Below are positions 34,862-42,236 of a stretch of 64,000 nt of DNA, piece after piece. A program made the translations under genes and the position numbers. The notes beneath the pieces were generated by a model. That model did no database searches. It was not told where the DNA came from and was given only the letters and a program-made list of their open reading frames with translations. Numbering within the stretch: the first letter of the stretch is position 1; every line of letters starts with the position of its first letter. Source of the stretch: Flavobacterium jumunjinense (GTDB lineage: Bacteria; Bacteroidota; Bacteroidia; Flavobacteriales; Flavobacteriaceae); the NCBI RefSeq assembly GCF_021650975.2, contig NZ_CP091285.1, forward strand, positions 3,224,001-3,288,000, read 5' to 3'.

Positions 34862-36715
34862 TTAAGCTCCTTTAAGATTAGGTAAAAATGATTTTAATTG
34901 ATTTTCAATAAATTCAAAATAAGAATCCATATCTGATTTTCCGAAAAATGAATTAGCTACACTATTTTTATCTGTGGTATATATTTTTGAAAAAACATTT
35001 TTAGTACAAATTGGAATGAAGACTTTCTTTTCATTATTCTTCGAGTCCATGTATTTCCCATCTTGATCAAGCTTTAATATTATTTCTCTTTTTTCTAAAA
35101 AAAGCTTATTTCCTAATTTACTGTTAGAATTTCTGTCCAATAGTGCTAAATTAGATATGCCATGAAGGTTCAATTCATTACTTATAGCTTCAATTAATTC
35201 TTCTAACTTTGTTGTCTTTGTTTTGTCAAATTTCAATTCAGAAAGTTTTCTTTTATCATTAATATCTATTTTATCAAAATAGATTAGTACTATTTCTATT
35301 TGCTTACTAATTGATAAGGATTTATTTTGTTTTGTAAAATATTCTTTGTTTGATAAAAGCCAGTTTTTTATTGAACCTACATTATCAAATTCACGCGGAT
35401 TTTGAGGATTGATATGTTCCACGCTCCATTTTTCTAATTTGTATAATTCGAATGGAAATTTATTGTCACTCAGATTATTGATGTAATAATTTATGTTTAA
35501 CAAAATCAATAAATTTTCACACTCCTTTCTTGAGTCACGATAATCTAAATTCTCTAACTGATATACATAATAATCGCTTCCGCTTTCTTGTTTACGAGTT
35601 TTTTCAAACTCTTTATCAATAGATTTAAGTAGCTTTTTCTTAAAATCACTTTTCGAGATACCTTTGCTCATTGTTATAATTGAAGAAAGAGACTTTATTT
35701 TGCTTACAATTAGAAAACCAACATAGTGATAAAGATCTTTGTCTTCATACCATTCTAACAATTTATTGAATGTATTCTTAACTTCTAACCAGTTTAAATC
35801 TTCTTTCAGCCTGAACCTTTTTTCATAAACGCAATAAGAATGTAAAACACCATCCTTGACACCCCTCTTATTTACTATATCAAAAATATAGTCAATTTTG
35901 GTTGAACTATCATTATAAAGGTCGTTATCACAAATAAAAAACCAAAAAGAATTATCATGAAGTTTATTTTCAATTTGATCCCACTCTAAAGCTAACTCTG
36001 TTGCTTTAAGTTTATAAATCTCTTTTGAATTATTATTTTTACATTCTAATATAAAAAGTGCCTTTATCAATTCAGAACTAGTCAATGCTATTTTACCAGC
36101 ATTAAGATTTAAAAAAACTTCTTCAGCAGAAACATCTATTGAAGTATTGTTTTGAGATTTATCGATATCATACCAAATCACATGTACTATGTTTAAAACC
36201 TTCTCTAGGAAATTTATTTTGAAATCTTCATCTTTTTCAATAAACCAGTCATGAATAGTTTTATAAACAGTATAAAAATGATAAATATCAACGTTGTCAT
36301 ATTTTTCAAATCCATCAATAGCAATAAATTCTTCCCACTTTAAACCAGTTTCAACATATTGATTAAGTTCAATTATCTTATGAAACAAAAACTCTTTACT
36401 TTCTGTTCTTGTTTCATAAGATATATAATATATGTCATTATTTGATTTTTTTAGAAAAACTAATAAAAGATAAAGACTTGTAATTCTTTGTTGTCCATCA
36501 ATCAATTCCAATGAGCCATCTTCATTTTCTCTAACAATTACTGGCTGTAAACAATATTTTCCATCATTCTCACTGTGTTCGTTGAAATCATTTAGTAACT
36601 CTAATATTTCTTTAGATTCCCATTTGTAGCCTCGCTGATAGTCTTTAACAATAAATGTTTTACCAATTAATGAGCTTACAGGTCTAAAAAAATTTATTTG
36701 TTCTTTTTCTTTCAT
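34862..36715 (-). CDS. DUF262 plus HNH (DUF1524) protein, first of two
   Basis: A 617-residue protein. The DUF262 domain begins with TFIVKDYQRGYKWESKEI and has LIDGQQRITSLYLLLVF (about residues 70-86). The C-terminal half carries WSVEHINPQNP (about residue 430), the first His-containing part of the DUF1524/HNH nuclease motif, in a context typical of GmrSD and SspE nucleases. Such proteins cut phage DNA with modified bases in an NTP-dependent way. It follows hsdS by 3 bases. Whether it recognises modified DNA here is inferred from the family. Confidence 0.85.
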   Translation of the reverse strand: MKEKEQINFFRPVSSLIGKTFIVKDYQRGYKWESKEILELLNDFNEHSENDGKYCLQPVIVRENEDGSLELIDGQQRITSLYLLLVFLKKSNNDIYYISYETRTESKEFLFHKIIELNQYVETGLKWEEFIAIDGFEKYDNVDIYHFYTVYKTIHDWFIEKDEDFKINFLEKVLNIVHVIWYDIDKSQNNTSIDVSAEEVFLNLNAGKIALTSSELIKALFILECKNNNSKEIYKLKATELALEWDQIENKLHDNSFWFFICDNDLYNDSSTKIDYIFDIVNKRGVKDGVLHSYCVYEKRFRLKEDLNWLEVKNTFNKLLEWYEDKDLYHYVGFLIVSKIKSLSSIITMSKGISKSDFKKKLLKSIDKEFEKTRKQESGSDYYVYQLENLDYRDSRKECENLLILLNINYYINNLSDNKFPFELYKLEKWSVEHINPQNPREFDNVGSIKNWLLSNKEYFTKQNKSLSISKQIEIVLIYFDKIDINDKRKLSELKFDKTKTTKLEELIEAISNELNLHGISNLALLDRNSNSKLGNKLFLEKREIILKLDQDGKYMDSKNNEKKVFIPICTKNVFSKIYTTDKNSVANSFFGKSDMDSYFEFIENQLKSFLPNLKGA

Positions 36716-36718
36716 ATT

Positions 36719-38020
36719 CTAACAAACTCTCACTTTCCCAGTAACAACCCCATCAATCAAACTCATTTTATACTCCTTCAACTTCTCAATCTCTTTCTGT
36801 TTTAAGGATATGGCTGTAGCGATTTTTGTAGTAGCTATTTCTATAAATTCTGCTATTTCTTTTTGTTCTTTAAGAGGAGGTGTGGCAGTATATATAGTCT
36901 TTAAATCATTAATGTTAAATCTAAAAACTTTAATTCCAGTAGCGTACTTTCTTAGTTCTTTAGAGAAAACTTTAGAAGAAAAATATAAATAATGACAATT
37001 TATTTTCTCATTATATGGTTTTAATATTAATTGTTCTCCTCCCAATAATCCCAAATCATTTCTATTATAAAATGCTGAATGACCCAAATCTTCGATTGTC
37101 TCAGATGTTGAGATAAAGATAGTATCACCATAATTTACTATTTGGGTTTCCTTGTAAAATTCATCATTGACATAAAAGTTATAATTTTTGTCAACTTCAT
37201 TTACTTTATAAGTTTTTCCATATTGCAAAGCGACATACTGACCATCATTCAATAATTCATCTTTACTAAAAGTTGAATTTCCTCTAACAAAACGACATAG
37301 ACCAATTAGCTTTTTCACCTCCCAGTGCTCCGGAATTTCCCCAATCCATTCCACACCGCTGTCTTTCAATTTAACGTTTTCATTTAAACCTCTGGTAACG
37401 GCTTTATGAATGAGTATTTGTCTGCGTTCTTTGAGCAGTTCTATTTGTTGTTGCTTGATGGCAATGGCTTGGTCTATTTTGGTGGTTTTGTCGTCTAGGA
37501 AATTCGCTATTGCGGTTTGTTCTTCTAATGGTGGAACAGGTAATTCTAATTTGCCAAAATCATTAAACCTAAAATCTGACGACCTTTCTCTAATTCCTTT
37601 CGCTAAAGATTCGATGAAACCTAATTTAGCTAAGTTTCTTAGGAAATAAGTATAAAAATATGAGTTTACTTTATTTTCAATCCGATGAGTACATACTGAA
37701 TATACTGGAGTTGATTTACCATCAGAATCAGAAATACCAATTGCTCCTGCAAAAGCATCCATATTATGGATAACTAAATCACCTTTTCTGATTCCTTGAT
37801 AACCATGTTCTTTTAGTGCATTTGTAAAACCATCAATTTTTCTATTTTTTCGTAGGGTAACCTCACCATCTCTAAAGCAAGTTACTATATCATCTTCCTT
37901 CCTTATAGGGCGTTCCATTTTTGTAAACAACCATTTTCCTTTAATTATTTCCCAATGCTCAGGAATTTCACCCAACCATGCTACACCGCTGTTTTTATAG
38001 TGTTGATATTTTTTCATCAT
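36719..38020 (-). CDS. hsdS: Type I restriction-modification specificity subunit
   Basis: A 433-residue HsdS with two target-recognition domains. Repeat 1 begins SGVAWLGEIPEHWEIIKG and repeat 2 SGVEWIGEIPEHWEVKKL (about residue 217). Each is closed by the conserved spacer helix: PPLEEQTAIANFLDDKTTKI (first) and PPLKEQKEIAEFIEIATTKI (second). The first overlaps the stop of the RAYT gene by 4 bases (ATGA), so translation is coupled. The recognition sequence cannot be read from the protein. Confidence 0.95.
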   Translation of the reverse strand: MMKKYQHYKNSGVAWLGEIPEHWEIIKGKWLFTKMERPIRKEDDIVTCFRDGEVTLRKNRKIDGFTNALKEHGYQGIRKGDLVIHNMDAFAGAIGISDSDGKSTPVYSVCTHRIENKVNSYFYTYFLRNLAKLGFIESLAKGIRERSSDFRFNDFGKLELPVPPLEEQTAIANFLDDKTTKIDQAIAIKQQQIELLKERRQILIHKAVTRGLNENVKLKDSGVEWIGEIPEHWEVKKLIGLCRFVRGNSTFSKDELLNDGQYVALQYGKTYKVNEVDKNYNFYVNDEFYKETQIVNYGDTIFISTSETIEDLGHSAFYNRNDLGLLGGEQLILKPYNEKINCHYLYFSSKVFSKELRKYATGIKVFRFNINDLKTIYTATPPLKEQKEIAEFIEIATTKIATAISLKQKEIEKLKEYKMSLIDGVVTGKVRVC

Positions 38021-38712
38021 GAGGCAAAGAATTTATCTTCCTGCCATTTTGCAGGATTGTTAATGATGTAATTAGAGATTCGGTTATAGACTGTTGCATT
38101 ACGTATAATATGGTCGTGAAATCGGGATTGCCATTCAAATGGAATATTATTTTTTCGTGCCCATGTGGTTACGGCAGATTTAAAACCACGAACGATGGAT
38201 GCCAAATTTTTGGTTTGTGGTCCAAATGTGTTTTCGGTATCGGTAGAGACGCCATGCATGGCGTCTCTTTGATGTGTATCGATTGCATCGCGCATGGTAT
38301 TTGTTTTTGAGACGCCATGCATGGCGTCTTTATGATGCGTGTCAATTGCATCGTGCATGGTATTTGAAATTATTTTGGAATCATCATTTGTTTTTGAGAC
38401 GCCATGCATGGCGTCTCTACGATTAAACGCATTATTTCCAATAAAAATAATCCCATGAAAATGATTGGGCATAACCACAAATTCGCCCAATTCTAAATGC
38501 ATATCAGGTCGAATTTCGATGGTTTTTATCCATTCTTGTGCTACAATGGTGCCCAAAACAGATAAATTCATTTTTCCATCTATTATTTCTCCAAAAAAAG
38601 GGTCACGGTTGGCAGTGCAAATAGTGATGAAATAGGATGCACAACTGCCATAATCCCAATTTTTTAATCTGGCTGTGCTAATGCTATATTTCTTTTGATA
38701 TTTTTCAGCCAT
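38017..38712 (-). CDS. RAYT inside the R-M operon, with palindromes in its own gene
   Basis: A 231-residue REP-associated tyrosine transposase. It shows YFITICTANRDPFFG, the metal-binding MPNHFHGIIFI (about residues 80-90), FKSAVTTWARKN, RFHDHIIRNATVYNRISNYI with a candidate catalytic Tyr, and NNPAKW. Between IGNNAFN (residue ~97) and FGPQTKNLAS (~173) it has an extra ~70 residues consisting of three RRDAMHGVS-type units translated from the palindrome GAGACGCC..GGCGTCTC. The ATG is 2 bases after the hsdM stop and the TGA overlaps hsdS. Function: hairpin mobilisation; a role in R-M is not evident. Confidence 0.88.
   Translation of the reverse strand: MAEKYQKKYSISTARLKNWDYGSCASYFITICTANRDPFFGEIIDGKMNLSVLGTIVAQEWIKTIEIRPDMHLELGEFVVMPNHFHGIIFIGNNAFNRRDAMHGVSKTNDDSKIISNTMHDAIDTHHKDAMHGVSKTNTMRDAIDTHQRDAMHGVSTDTENTFGPQTKNLASIVRGFKSAVTTWARKNNIPFEWQSRFHDHIIRNATVYNRISNYIINNPAKWQEDKFFAS
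38246..38417. repeat. Three palindromes inside the RAYT coding sequence
   Basis: Copies at 38246-38267, 38309-38330 (last base T for C) and 38396-38417. Each consists of arms GAGACGCCATG and CATGGCGTCTC, 22 bases. Spacing is 63 and 87 bases (21 and 29 codons), so the gene stays in frame. Segments between the copies also repeat (GATTGCATCGCGCATGGTAT and a near copy). The minus-strand translation is DAMHGVS in each. Confidence 0.92.
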
Positions 38713-38714
38713 CG

Positions 38715-41063
38715 TTAAAAATTTAAAATTTCAGCAATTAAACCGTCACTTTCTTTTTCTAAAGCTAAAATGTCAGCGGTTACTTCTTCGATTTCTCGCA
38801 AAGGTTTGTGTTGGTAAAAGTATTTGTTAAAGCTAATTTCATAACCAATTTTGGTAGCATCTAAGTTTATCCAAGCTTCTGCTACATGCGGTTGTACTTC
38901 TTTTAAAAAGTAACTATGTATGTTTTCTTTTAGGGGTATGTTTTCGGTATCCCGTAAATCGCTTTCGGTTTCGTATGTTAAATAGTCTCCTTTTTTAGTT
39001 GTTGAATAATACCCATAATCAGCTAGTTCACTTTCTTTGCAATTTAAATGTTCTAGTACTTTTTCTAGTTTGTCGCCAGTTAATTTTGCTGTGCCTTTAA
39101 TTACTTTTTCAGCATCAGCATCATACCAACTCACAGCGTTCAGTATGGCATTTTTTTCAGAAGCACCAAGTTTTAGTTTTTGGTCTTTAATTACTGTATC
39201 TACTTTTTGTTTGAAAAGGTTAAAGTCATTAAAAACTTCGTCACTAATAATTTTAGCCAAAATGCTTGCTTGTTCCAATAATAAAGCTTGTTTGTCCCAA
39301 GTTGCTTTGGCAACTAATTTCTTTTGGTTGGCAGCATTAAGATTAAGTTCGTTTTTCTCGCACCAGTCTAAAATTTCTTTTTTATGTTTTTCTATATCTT
39401 TATAAATAGCTTCACCGTAGGTTTCATAAGCATGTACCATAGCTTCTTTTAAACCTTTATCATAGCGCAAGGCTGAAATACGTTCGGCAGTGAATTGCGC
39501 TTTCAAACGTTTTGGTCGTTCAATAGTTACTTTGTGATACCCAAAATCGCTATTGTCAAATACTTTAGCAGCAATACCTTCATCCGTAGTGCGTTCAATC
39601 GCTTTTAAATCGGTATAAGTTTGTACAATTTCTGTAATATGTTCAGGAGCAAACTCACAGTTTTTGTTTCCAAGATTTTTGCGTAGTTTTCTATACAATT
39701 GTCCCGCGTCAATTAACTGTACTTTTCCTTTTCGGTTAGCCGTTTTGTTGTTGCTTAAAATCCAAATGTAAGTGGTAATTCCTGTATTGTAAAACAAGTT
39801 GTTGGGTAGTTGCACTATGGCTTCTAACCAATCGTTTTCAATAATATACCTACGAATGTTACTTTCACCACCACCAGCATCACCCGTAAACAAACTACTT
39901 CCATTATGCACAGAAGCAATACGTGTTCCTGTAGCACTTTGCGAAAGCGGTTTCATTTTGCTCACCATTTCCATCAAAAACAACAATTGTCCGTCAGAAG
40001 AACGAGGAATAGCATCTGCATCTTCTGCAATGCCCCAATAGTTTTTCAATTGAATTTGAAAACGAGGATCAATTACGTCTTTTCCATCTTTGATGTTTTT
40101 TTGCTCACTAGCCCAAGATTTCCCATAAGGAGGATTAGATAACATAAAATCAAAAGTAGTGCCTGCAAATTCATCGGTAGAAAGCGTAGAACCCACACGG
40201 ATATTCTCAGGGTTATTCCCTTTAATCATCATATCACTTTTACAAATGGCATAGGTTTCATCATTAATTTCCTTTCCATACAAATACACATCCGAATTAA
40301 CCGCTTTAATTTCCCCATCAGGATCTACAATAAAGTTTTGCGATTCGGTCAACATTCCACCACTACCACAAGCAGGATCATAAATCGTCATTACAGGTGG
40401 TAAGTTATTTTTTATAGGGTCAAAAATAATGTGTGTCATCAGGTCAATTACTTCACGAGGGGTAAAGTGTTCTCCGGCTTCTTCATTATTTTCTTCATTA
40501 AACTTTCTAATCAATTCTTCAAAAACATAACCCATTCCTAAGTTAGATAATTCAGGTAATTTTCTACCATTGCTATCTAGTTTTTCAAAAGGAGTCAAGT
40601 TGATATCGGGTGATGTAAATTTTTCTAAAACATCAAGCAATACATCTTTTGCAGCCATGTGTCTAATTTGGCTTTTCAGCTTAAACTTTTCAATGATTTC
40701 TTTTACGTTACCACTGAAACCGTTTAGGTAATCTTCAAAATCAGCCTGTAATCTTTGTTGGCTATTAGAAGCCGTATTGTGTAAACGTTGTAACGTCCAT
40801 TCACTTGTATTATAAAACACATAATTTGATGCTTCTCTTAATCCATTTTCATCCCATTCCGTAAAACCAGCCTCATCACGTTGAAAAGCCAGTTCTTCCA
40901 TCACAGCATCCTTTGTAGGTTCTAATAAAGCATCTAAGCGACGTAAAACCACCATGGGTAAAATAACATCACGGTATTTTCCACGAACGTAAACGTCTCG
41001 CAAACAGTCGTCTGCAATAGACCATATAAAAGAAACTAATTTATTATGTACCGATTGATTCAT
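38715..41063 (-). CDS. hsdM: Type I restriction-modification methyltransferase subunit
   Basis: A 782-residue HsdM, the N6-adenine methyltransferase subunit. HsdM_N is at residues 5-160 (SVHNKLVSFIWSIADDCLRD..). Motif I is YDPACGSGGMLTE (about residue 230) and motif IV NPPYGKSW (about 309); AcetyTransferase-like additions are absent. The C-terminal ~300 residues are an extended helical part seen in larger Bacteroidota HsdM. It is the first gene of the operon (minus strand). Together with hsdS and hsdR it forms a complete system. Confidence 0.95.
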   Translation of the reverse strand: MNQSVHNKLVSFIWSIADDCLRDVYVRGKYRDVILPMVVLRRLDALLEPTKDAVMEELAFQRDEAGFTEWDENGLREASNYVFYNTSEWTLQRLHNTASNSQQRLQADFEDYLNGFSGNVKEIIEKFKLKSQIRHMAAKDVLLDVLEKFTSPDINLTPFEKLDSNGRKLPELSNLGMGYVFEELIRKFNEENNEEAGEHFTPREVIDLMTHIIFDPIKNNLPPVMTIYDPACGSGGMLTESQNFIVDPDGEIKAVNSDVYLYGKEINDETYAICKSDMMIKGNNPENIRVGSTLSTDEFAGTTFDFMLSNPPYGKSWASEQKNIKDGKDVIDPRFQIQLKNYWGIAEDADAIPRSSDGQLLFLMEMVSKMKPLSQSATGTRIASVHNGSSLFTGDAGGGESNIRRYIIENDWLEAIVQLPNNLFYNTGITTYIWILSNNKTANRKGKVQLIDAGQLYRKLRKNLGNKNCEFAPEHITEIVQTYTDLKAIERTTDEGIAAKVFDNSDFGYHKVTIERPKRLKAQFTAERISALRYDKGLKEAMVHAYETYGEAIYKDIEKHKKEILDWCEKNELNLNAANQKKLVAKATWDKQALLLEQASILAKIISDEVFNDFNLFKQKVDTVIKDQKLKLGASEKNAILNAVSWYDADAEKVIKGTAKLTGDKLEKVLEHLNCKESELADYGYYSTTKKGDYLTYETESDLRDTENIPLKENIHSYFLKEVQPHVAEAWINLDATKIGYEISFNKYFYQHKPLREIEEVTADILALEKESDGLIAEILNF

Positions 41064-41153
41064 TCTTTATTTTTTCTTAAAAATCATTTTCCCAAACCTA
41101 CCAAAAATAAACCATTTCGGCAATAGGAGTATAGGTATTTCTACCTGTTTTTA

Positions 41154-41161
41154 CAAATATA
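41154..41161 (-). promoter_or_regulatory. Possible -7 element of the R-M operon
   Basis: Minus-strand TATATTTG, an exact TAnnTTTG match 90 bases before the hsdM ATG. No TTG -33 is evident in the inverted repeat just upstream. Confidence 0.4.
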
Positions 41162-41194
41162 AAACCCGTAAGTGGATTTATTTTACGGGTTTTC
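41161..41194. repeat. Inverted repeat upstream of hsdM
   Basis: AAAACCCGTAA pairs with TTTACGGGTTTT across ~10 bases. As a terminator it would end transcription coming from the right; as an operator it lies in the -33 region of the putative hsdM promoter. The same stem sequence type occurs in the terminator at 29003-29036. Confidence 0.6.
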
Positions 41195-41230
41195 GCATTG
41201 GTAATAAAAATATGTTTTTAAATCATTATC

Positions 41231-41592
41231 GGTAGAGACGCGATGCTTCGCGTCTCTCTTTTATCGTTAAACGCCATGTGTCTCTATTTATCGTTAAATG
41301 CCATGCGTCTCCTTTATCGTCCAAAACATTATGTTTTGATGATTCACACGCATTACGTTTTTATATGTATTGAAACGGATTGCGCTTTTACATGTATTGA
41401 GACGCATTGCAATGCGTCTCTACGTAATACAACCAAATACTCTATTTATCGTTAAATGCCATGCGTCTCTATTTATCGTTTAAAACATTGTGTTTTGATG
41501 ATTCACACGCATTGCGTTTTTATATATATTGAAACGCATTGCGTTTTTACATGTATTCACACACATTGCAATGCGTCTCTACGTAATACAAC
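41231..41592. repeat. Palindrome-rich array between hsdM and the second RAYT
   Basis: The array contains GAGACGCGA-tgc-TTCGCGTCTC near 41236-41257 and two tandem copies of a ~150-bp block (about 41283-41430 and 41443-41592), each ending in a palindrome with arms related to GAGACGCATTG/CAATGCGTCTC plus TACGTAATACAACC. Within the blocks there are many half-palindromes (CGTTAAATGCCATGCGTCTC, ACGCATTGCGTTTTTA). No gene is present. The core GACGCA/TGCGTC matches the 41-bp array at 3531. Confidence 0.88.
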
Positions 41593-41600
41593 CTAAAACA

Positions 41601-42236
41601 TCATTTATTAAAAACATCCAAATTCCATTTTTTCGGATTATCAATAATATATTGTGAAATATTCTCATACGCATTTGGATTCCGTATAATATGATCATGA
41701 AATCGTGCCTGCCAACCAAAATCAGGATTAATACGTCGTGCCCGAACCGTCACCGCAGATTTAAACCCACGAATAATCGATGCCAAATTTTTGGATTGGG
41801 GTCCAAATTGGTTTTTGTATACATTACCGTTACCATGCATCGCGTCACCATTACCATGTATTGTGGATACGCCATTTATGGCGTCTCTACCATTAAATTC
41901 ATTATTACCAATAAAAATAATCCCATGAAAATGATTAGGCATTACGATAAATTCCCCCAATTCCAAATGCATATCAGGTCTGATTTGTGGTGTTTTTATC
42001 CATTCTTCTGCCACGATTTTTCCAATTTCTGACGGCACCATCTGTAGAGACGCCATGCTTGGCGTCTCTACTACAACACATGGCATCTCTTCAATACATG
42101 GCGTCTCTTCAATGCTACCAAAAAAATGTTCCCTATTTGCAGTACAAATCGTTACAAAATACACCGCCTTTTGCCCATAATCCCAATGTTGCAATCGGGT
42201 GGATTCTATTCTATATTTGTTATTGAATTTTGTCAT
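41601..42236 (-). CDS. Second RAYT with inserted palindromes
   Basis: A 211-residue RAYT closely related to the one at 38017. Shared blocks are YFVTICTANREHFFG, MPNHFHGIIFIGNNEFN (HFH at about residue 100), FGPQSKNLASIIRGFKSAVT and NISQYIIDNPKKW. Extra residues occur at two places: after HFFGSIE (TPCIEEMPCVVVETPSMASL) and after GNNEFN (GRDAINGVSTIHGNGDAMHG). Both come from palindrome-related DNA (42044-42071 and 41869-41884). The second lies at the same place as the insertion in the operon copy. It is just upstream of, and in the same direction as, the R-M operon, separated from it by the palindrome array. Confidence 0.88.
   Translation of the reverse strand: MTKFNNKYRIESTRLQHWDYGQKAVYFVTICTANREHFFGSIEETPCIEEMPCVVVETPSMASLQMVPSEIGKIVAEEWIKTPQIRPDMHLELGEFIVMPNHFHGIIFIGNNEFNGRDAINGVSTIHGNGDAMHGNGNVYKNQFGPQSKNLASIIRGFKSAVTVRARRINPDFGWQARFHDHIIRNPNAYENISQYIIDNPKKWNLDVFNK
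41869..41884. repeat. Palindrome inside the second RAYT, site B
   Basis: ACGCCAT-tt-ATGGCGT, extended by imperfect GAT.. and ..CTC arms. It lies at the position where the other RAYT has its three copies. Confidence 0.75.
42044..42071. repeat. Palindrome inside the second RAYT, site A
   Basis: GTAGAGACGCCA-tgct-TGGCGTCTCTAC, 12-bp perfect arms. Half copies follow (ACATGGCATCTCTTC, ACATGGCGTCTCTTC). This region encodes the extra TPC/MPC/TPSMASL residues between HFFG and the conserved EIGKIVAEEW. Confidence 0.82.

Follow-up and report, generated by a model that had tools for sequence, protein, structure and literature searches.

The stretch of the Flavobacterium jumunjinense genome analyzed here (NZ_CP091285.1, positions 3,224,001 to 3,288,000, referred to as the window, 64,000 nt) contains two genes, RAYT-1 and RAYT-2, that encode transposases of the type associated with repetitive extragenic palindromes (REPs), the REP-associated tyrosine transposases (RAYTs). 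Both genes carry REP-like palindromes within their own coding sequence, where these are read through in an open frame, and related genes carry palindromes at the matching place. The relevant features, with positions in the window, are as follows.

38017..38712, minus strand: RAYT-1, a REP-associated tyrosine transposase of 231 aa, subclass 2.4 / group 4 type
38242..38425, minus strand: in-frame palindrome array of RAYT-1, encoding most of the loop, predicted to be disordered, between the strand at residues 84-91 and the helix at residues 170-187
38392..38421 (core 38396-38417), minus strand: internal palindrome 1 in gene order, 5' GTAG foot retained on the coding strand
38306..38333 (core 38309-38329, 21/22 bp), minus strand: internal palindrome 2, without feet
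38242..38271 (core 38246-38267), minus strand: internal palindrome 3, 3' CTAC foot retained on the coding strand
41232..41259, strand not assigned: related palindrome in the gap between hsdM and RAYT-2
41396..41424, strand not assigned: related palindrome with core GCATTGCAATGC, in the same gap
41601..42236, minus strand: RAYT-2, 211 aa, of the same type as RAYT-1 (NF047646, E 3.5e-14, below cut-off)
41863-41890, minus strand: decayed double-foot loop palindrome of RAYT-2, GTGG...CTAC, read as DAINGVS at residue 118, between GNNEFN and FGPQSKNLAS
42044-42071, minus strand: intact 28-nt double-foot palindrome GTAG...CTAC with 12-bp arms, in the N-terminal half of RAYT-2

RAYT-1 carries GAGACGCCATGCATGGCGTCTC three times, twice in full and once over 21 of the 22 bp, with spacings of 63 and 87 nt. 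A preliminary description of this DNA, made from the sequence alone, had reported the three palindromes at these spacings, and only the copy that is 1 bp short needs to be corrected. Their reading is DAMHGVS, in stretches that start at residues 100, 129, and 150. In the AlphaFold model of RAYT-1 (mean pLDDT 76.6, with 116 residues at 90 or above), block means are 43-50 at residues 101-160, and the loop that holds the palindromes is predicted to be disordered, in agreement with the tolerant loop that had been proposed. Within the array, palindrome and spacer together are directly repeated (58 nt, 90% identity), and on the coding strand the GTAG foot is present only on the first copy and the CTAC foot only on the last. 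Because of these direct repeats and the feet at the outer ends only, a tandem duplication of one insert can be proposed, and the three copies need not represent three insertions but fit a single double-foot insert followed by in-frame tandem duplication. Comparable arrays are found in two of the related genes described below, one with three copies 54 nt apart (L097) and one with five copies 75 nt apart (L194), and over all genes surveyed the spacing of neighboring palindromes is divisible by three in 27 of 33 pairs.

For RAYT-2, the preliminary description had placed related palindromes at the matching place in the loop and at a second site. Both are present, with the qualification that the loop copy is decayed, and the proposed DAMHGVS reading applies to the RAYT-1 copies, which are in frame, and not to RAYT-2, where the loop copy reads DAINGVS and the palindrome at 42044-42071 uses another frame (ETPSMAS, residue 57). 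The latter palindrome is the sole match of the double-foot pattern in the F. jumunjinense genome. The tree neighbor of RAYT-2 is not RAYT-1 but a gene of Flavobacterium jejuense (L021), with 78% core identity, and this gene has a perfect palindrome at the place that matches the decayed loop copy. As single-stranded DNA, each of the five copies in RAYT-1 and RAYT-2 gives a stable hairpin (z −4.5 to −8.7). The gap between hsdM and RAYT-2 (41232-41600) also contains several decayed relatives of the palindrome, of the ATTGCGT/ACGCAAT type as judged by eye, and these look like former copies.

The half-site GAGACGCCATG occurs seven times in the window, all at 38246-42107, with 0.00 occurrences expected (100 shuffles), and exact GAGACGC...GCGTCTC palindromes occupy five places in the 4.68-Mb genome, all of them in or between RAYT-1 and RAYT-2 (38.2-42.1 kb of the window). 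A chance origin of the palindromes is rejected by the window shuffles together with synonymous shuffles of the related genes. By exact copies there is no dispersed REP population in this genome, looser or decayed copies elsewhere not having been searched for, and by the same measure the palindromes are not REPs in the strict sense of many copies dispersed between genes. The possibility that a genome-wide REP population has spilled over into the RAYT genes is likewise unsupported in this genome by the distribution of exact copies. A third RAYT gene outside the window, RAYT-3 (G000:C1:3472784-3473356; L088, L089), has a different palindrome, GGGCGAATTGCATTCGCCC, twice in its loop, and the two exact places of that palindrome in the genome are both inside RAYT-3.

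RAYT-1 matches NF047646 (REP_Tyr_transpos) with E 4.4e-14 and 52.6 bits, below the cut-off of 80 and split into two stretches, and no Pfam family was assigned to RAYT-1 or RAYT-2. A profile of 27 sequences (RAYT-1, RAYT-2, and 25 relatives) matches Escherichia coli TnpA-REP (PDB 4er8; E 2.5e-8, 36 positions), pointing to a related core, and the other match of this search, Atg17 (E 3.4e-4), is presumably due to chance. The E. coli enzyme is of subclass 2.2, from which the genes studied here are set apart, on the published description, by the insert between β3 and αC and by their in-gene REPs (PMC6006769). On the basis of motifs and features, and not of the published subclass tree, RAYT-1 and RAYT-2 are assigned to TnpA-REP subclass 2.4, which is given as RAYT group 4 of Bertels et al. 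(2017) by Quentin et al. (2018; PMC6006769). Both proteins have the NHFH and WQ motifs, and the YIxNNP-type motif is YIINNP in RAYT-1 and, one residue off, YIIDNP in RAYT-2. The insertion of variable length between β3 and αC is seen in the alignment and in the AlphaFold model of RAYT-1, and palindromes lie in open frames of RAYT-1, RAYT-2, and their relatives. The double foot GT[AG]G...C[TC]AC is found at 42044-42071, at 41863-41890 with a decayed stem, and in the RAYT-1 array at its outer ends only. As here, the hosts of subclass 2.4 include Bacteroidetes (PMC6006769).

An in-frame REP within the tnpAREP gene, generally between HuH and Y, was described by Quentin et al. as unique to subclass 2.4 and predominant in it, together with double-foot REPs, a loop modeled as peripheral, and little effect of the in-gene REPs on the activity of the protein; the inserted β3-αC domain occurs only in subclasses 2.3 and 2.4, and REPs in the gene only in 2.4 (PMC6006769). 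The view of the preliminary description that such palindromes were undescribed was therefore mistaken, and what is added here includes the survey of related genes, the co-divergence of palindrome and enzyme and, in this genome, the restriction of exact copies to the RAYT genes and the stretch between them. The genes differ from subclass 2.4 as published in having, in this genome, no exact copy outside the RAYT genes and the stretch between them, in the array of three in RAYT-1, and in the site in the N-terminal half of RAYT-2. The GTAG foot, the palindrome, and the association with a RAYT are shared with the GTAG-tagged REPs and REPtrons (Nunvar, 2010; Di Nocera, 2013; PMC3733652, PMC2817692), for which in-frame intragenic REPs in non-RAYT genes are reported. 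Unlike the palindromes studied here, however, the GTAG-tagged REPs are numerous and mostly intergenic, and REPs inside RAYT genes are unmentioned in the parts of these papers referred to. The palindromic elements of Rickettsia also lie inside protein genes (PMC3733652) but occur, in frame, in a variety of unrelated genes, whereas in this genome only RAYT genes and one intergenic stretch hold an exact copy. The literature covered, in parts and with supplements and most subscription papers outside its scope, contains no report of internal copies outnumbering flanking ones, of co-divergence of the arms, or of palindromes private to RAYT genes.

To collect related genes, 296 Bacteroidota genomes were searched using 95 N-terminal residues of RAYT-1 as a query that is blind to the loop. 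The loop-blind set comprises the best 110 of more than 150 loci in rank order, including RAYT-1 and one IS200-type frame and excluding the RAYT-2 row of the window; 83 of the 110 gave 86 distinct full-length frames, and 27 were left out, as frames that were broken or ran off a contig, as duplicates of another locus, or because the pattern missed a motif. By eye, 20 of these 27 have a palindrome within 480 nt after the HuH codon stretch and seven have none, the frames being untallied. A second set was obtained with a query that included the loop and is biased towards palindromes; its 80 loci, which by their record titles belong to several phyla, yielded 70 frames. Palindromes were counted if they had a perfect arm of at least 8 bp, a center of no more than 6 nt, and a G+C content of at least 40%. 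Such a palindrome lies between HuH and Y in 68 of the 86 loop-blind genes versus 25 of 430 synonymous shuffles, and with an arm of at least 10 bp the figures are 57/86 and 6/430. In the second set, many of the 80 loci show a palindrome a short distance downstream of the HuH codons, its sequence being specific to the lineage, and by the strict count 56 of 70 full-length frames have one. In IS200-type controls of the same phylum no palindrome was found in any of 23 distinct frames (from 30 loci). The preliminary description had held that palindromes absent from other RAYT genes, or out of frame there, would indicate chance; in both sets they are present at the matching place in open frames. The two sets together have 157 such palindromes; a position could be assigned to 154, of which 150 lie between the HuH strand and helix C. 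Insertions in the N-terminal half are found in RAYT-2, L021, and L030, and in L033 the usual loop is empty and the palindrome lies in the next loop, between helix C and the following strand.

Both feet (GTRG...CYAC) are present in 72 of the 157 internal palindromes. These 72 are read in two frames, 43 in one and 29 in the other, and never in the third, because a stop closes the third frame in 71 of the 72 and only open genes were chosen; the use of two frames is not forced by that choice. A protein pattern found 31 motifs at 28 loci, and in every one of them codon 2 ends in a silent base complementary to the base with which codon 5 begins (expectation 10.7/31 if independent, shared descent not being allowed for). 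Residue 5 (Arg in 11, Cys in 10, Gly in 8, other in 2) follows the pairing to this silent base, and the remaining pairs of the 18-nt core are intact in 25 to 31 of the 31 motifs. The use of two frames, and the pairing of a silent base with one that changes the amino acid, indicate that it is the DNA, not the peptide, that is kept. It is accordingly extremely improbable that conservation acts on the loop peptide DAMHxVS, with the palindrome as a by-product. DAMHxVS does recur in many genes, but its residue 5 varies with the pairing of the silent base, the second frame yields the unrelated VETxCIASL, and other lineages have other peptides. As a general account, conservation of the peptide is rejected by the use of two frames and the silent-base pairing.

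The divergence of the arms was measured as the mean number of differences over 10 positions in pairs of genes with both feet, binned by the identity of the enzyme core. Among the 6 pairs above 80% core identity the mean is 0-0.25, rising to 1.5-1.6 in the 95 pairs at 60-80%, 3.2 at 50-60%, and 5-6 in the 1858 pairs at 30-50%; by this comparison the arms of the palindrome diverge in step with the enzyme. The frame differs in none of the 16 pairs above 70% core identity. With the frame shared by close pairs and differing across lineages, the palindrome has thus passed down mainly together with the gene and been re-set from time to time, and a single ancient insertion in a fixed frame is rejected since lineages differ in frame. 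Template switching at hairpins corrects imperfect palindromes, and an old insertion could thus drift symmetrically without any function. Such mutational maintenance accounts for complementary changes in the arms and for their gradual change with gene divergence. On its own it is nonetheless an unlikely explanation, as it leaves unaccounted for the GTRG...CYAC feet in 72/157 palindromes, the resemblance of internal to flanking palindromes, and the co-occurrence of RAYTs and palindromes across genomes, the last two of which are described below.

Palindromes within 300 nt of the gene flank 58 of 124 genes with an internal palindrome. The mean similarity of the internal palindrome to those in its own flanks is 0.80 and 0.71 in the two sets, versus 0.375 and 0.275 to the flanks of other genes when permuted (largest of 300 permutations 0.489 and 0.37), and a similarity of at least 0.8 to the own flank is reached in 21/30 and 16/28 genes. 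The flanking palindromes are concentrated at the genes, with 50 of 171 immediate flanks having one versus 9 of 164 windows at least 700 nt away. Where both flanks were available, the loop-blind set (n = 85) has 39 genes with an internal palindrome only, 28 with both, 12 with a flanking one only, and 6 with neither, and the corresponding numbers for the second set (n = 63) are 25, 26, 9, and 3. The internal copy is thus commoner than a copy in the 300-nt flanks, 67 versus 40 of 85. The great majority of the genes in subclass 2.4 and in four other subclasses are reported to have canonical REPs at distances of up to 1000 nt (PMC6006769), a figure with which the present 300-nt counts of perfect palindromes are not directly comparable. 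A flanking palindrome is present in 12/18 genes without an internal one versus 28/67 with one (p 0.07; with the second set p 0.02), which is no more than suggestive of flanking palindromes substituting for internal ones.

Across the 296 genomes, and among the matches listed, 86 have both a RAYT and a double-foot palindrome, 42 a RAYT only, 22 a palindrome only, and 146 neither, where RAYT presence and distance from a RAYT refer to the loop-blind matches listed (more than 150). The 86 genomes with both have a median of three double-foot matches; 50 of them have no more than three, 14 have at least 10, and the highest number is 44. Double-foot palindromes away from RAYT genes are mostly outside long frames, with 5 of 40 in an open reading frame of at least 120 aa. 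The 40 were drawn in order from 61 listed, two having been skipped, of which one lay close to the end of a contig and the other was not palindromic, and the five long frames are open reading frames by length only that may not be real genes.

These distributions bear on the simplest alternative, close both to the preliminary description and to the reading of Quentin et al., in which the element inserts near its own gene, a flexible loop tolerates the copies that are in frame, and the palindromes are idle. A loop predicted to be disordered, insertions at other places too (the N-terminal halves of RAYT-2, L021, and L030, and after helix C in L033), and the existence of decayed and empty genes are all in its favor. 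Tolerance alone, however, predicts fewer genes with a palindrome than the 68 of 86 observed, and neither the excess of internal over flanking copies, nor a palindrome retained in a genome without an exact copy elsewhere, nor arm pairing that persists over large divergence is what it would lead one to expect. We regard neutral tolerance as possible but rather doubtful.

A more probable explanation, which we favor with some reservation, is that the hairpin cognate to the enzyme resides within the gene itself, in the disordered loop, so that the gene stays linked to its own recognition site even where dispersed REPs are lacking. A double-foot REP hairpin (GTAG...CTAC) would have entered the gene in frame, in the loop that joins the HuH strand to the following helix, possibly through the action of the enzyme; that the RAYT enzyme itself placed the palindrome in the gene, as the preliminary description had implied, is plausible. 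In RAYT-1 the hairpin would later have been multiplied by in-frame tandem duplication. Since then the gene would have kept it over long periods, with concerted changes in the two arms that track the divergence of the enzyme. The hairpin would most likely be the recognition site of that enzyme, with the GTAG guide at one end and the CT in CTAC at the other. Since GTAG and CTAC ends are present on both strands, each strand would be a complete potential substrate. In this way the gene would remain linked to its substrate even in genomes that, like this one, have no dispersed REP population. The TnpA-REP enzymes studied so far recognize a single-stranded hairpin in a strand-specific manner and cut at CT, in one case also at CA (PMC8266576).

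The hairpin might instead serve in autoregulation, with the enzyme binding it in the gene or its mRNA, or with the hairpin stalling expression, either of which would limit the level of the enzyme. Transposases are often self-limiting, and a stable hairpin does lie inside the gene. This explanation nevertheless has a low probability, given that the position of the hairpin relative to the HuH codons and its frame both vary and that single-stranded DNA is the substrate of the TnpA-REP enzymes characterized so far (PMC8266576).

Several observations weigh against the proposal that the gene carries its own recognition site. We infer, from the features of the DNA, that the enzyme recognizes the hairpin, that it made the insertion, and that selection is the cause of maintenance, and arm pairing and co-divergence would also be expected from mutation that corrects imperfect palindromes. 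The importance of the GTAG guide varies between studied enzymes (PMC8266576), and 85 of the 157 internal palindromes are without one or both feet by the pattern used. The loop copy of RAYT-2 is decayed and scores 0/1 by the perfect-palindrome test, and the 18 of 86 loop-blind genes without a perfect palindrome comprise nine with one mismatch, eight that are empty with an open frame, and one IS200-type gene. As decayed and empty open frames exist, a gene can remain open without the palindrome. The own flank is clearly unlike the internal palindrome (similarity below 0.8) in 9/30 and 12/28 genes. Of 76 double-foot palindromes listed, 61 lie elsewhere, with 11 in and four near RAYT genes, and elsewhere accounts for 32 of 47 listed from genomes with a RAYT row. 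On a quick tree that contains only the loci collected here, with frame labels on 69 of 154 rows and 58 of 151 inner branches poorly supported, the frame must have changed at least 13 times (mean after shuffling 21.4, minimum 16). Finally, the survey counts are not independent because of shared descent.

A stronger version of the proposal, which we put forward only tentatively and consider less likely to be correct than not, is that the internal hairpin, and not the dispersed REPs, is the primary selected copy. The gene would then be self-addressed, enzyme and hairpin would co-evolve by in-frame compensatory changes, and dispersed REPs would be transient by-products. A substrate carried in frame, to which the loop of the protein adapts, would be a simple physical link that could explain why RAYT enzymes and palindromes stay together in the long term. 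If so, the probable target hairpin of each enzyme would be evident from its own gene, enzyme-substrate pairs could be read from sequence, and recognition specificity could be tested across many natural pairs.

RAYT-1 is located within a type I restriction-modification operon (36719-41063), between hsdM (38715-41063) and hsdS (36719-38020), and overlaps hsdS by 4 nt. The order hsdM-RAYT-hsdS is also found at L028 and L073, and pieces of hsdM or hsdS are present in the flanks of 16 of 189 RAYT loci. A gene for a GmrSD-type restriction endonuclease (34862-36715) adjoins the type I system, which suggests that the two form a defense cluster. Elsewhere, at L159 and L171 (G007:C2:2299700-2303600), three RAYT genes or remnants stand in a row about 550 nt apart, with the same palindrome in two of the three and a stop in the N-terminal half of one.

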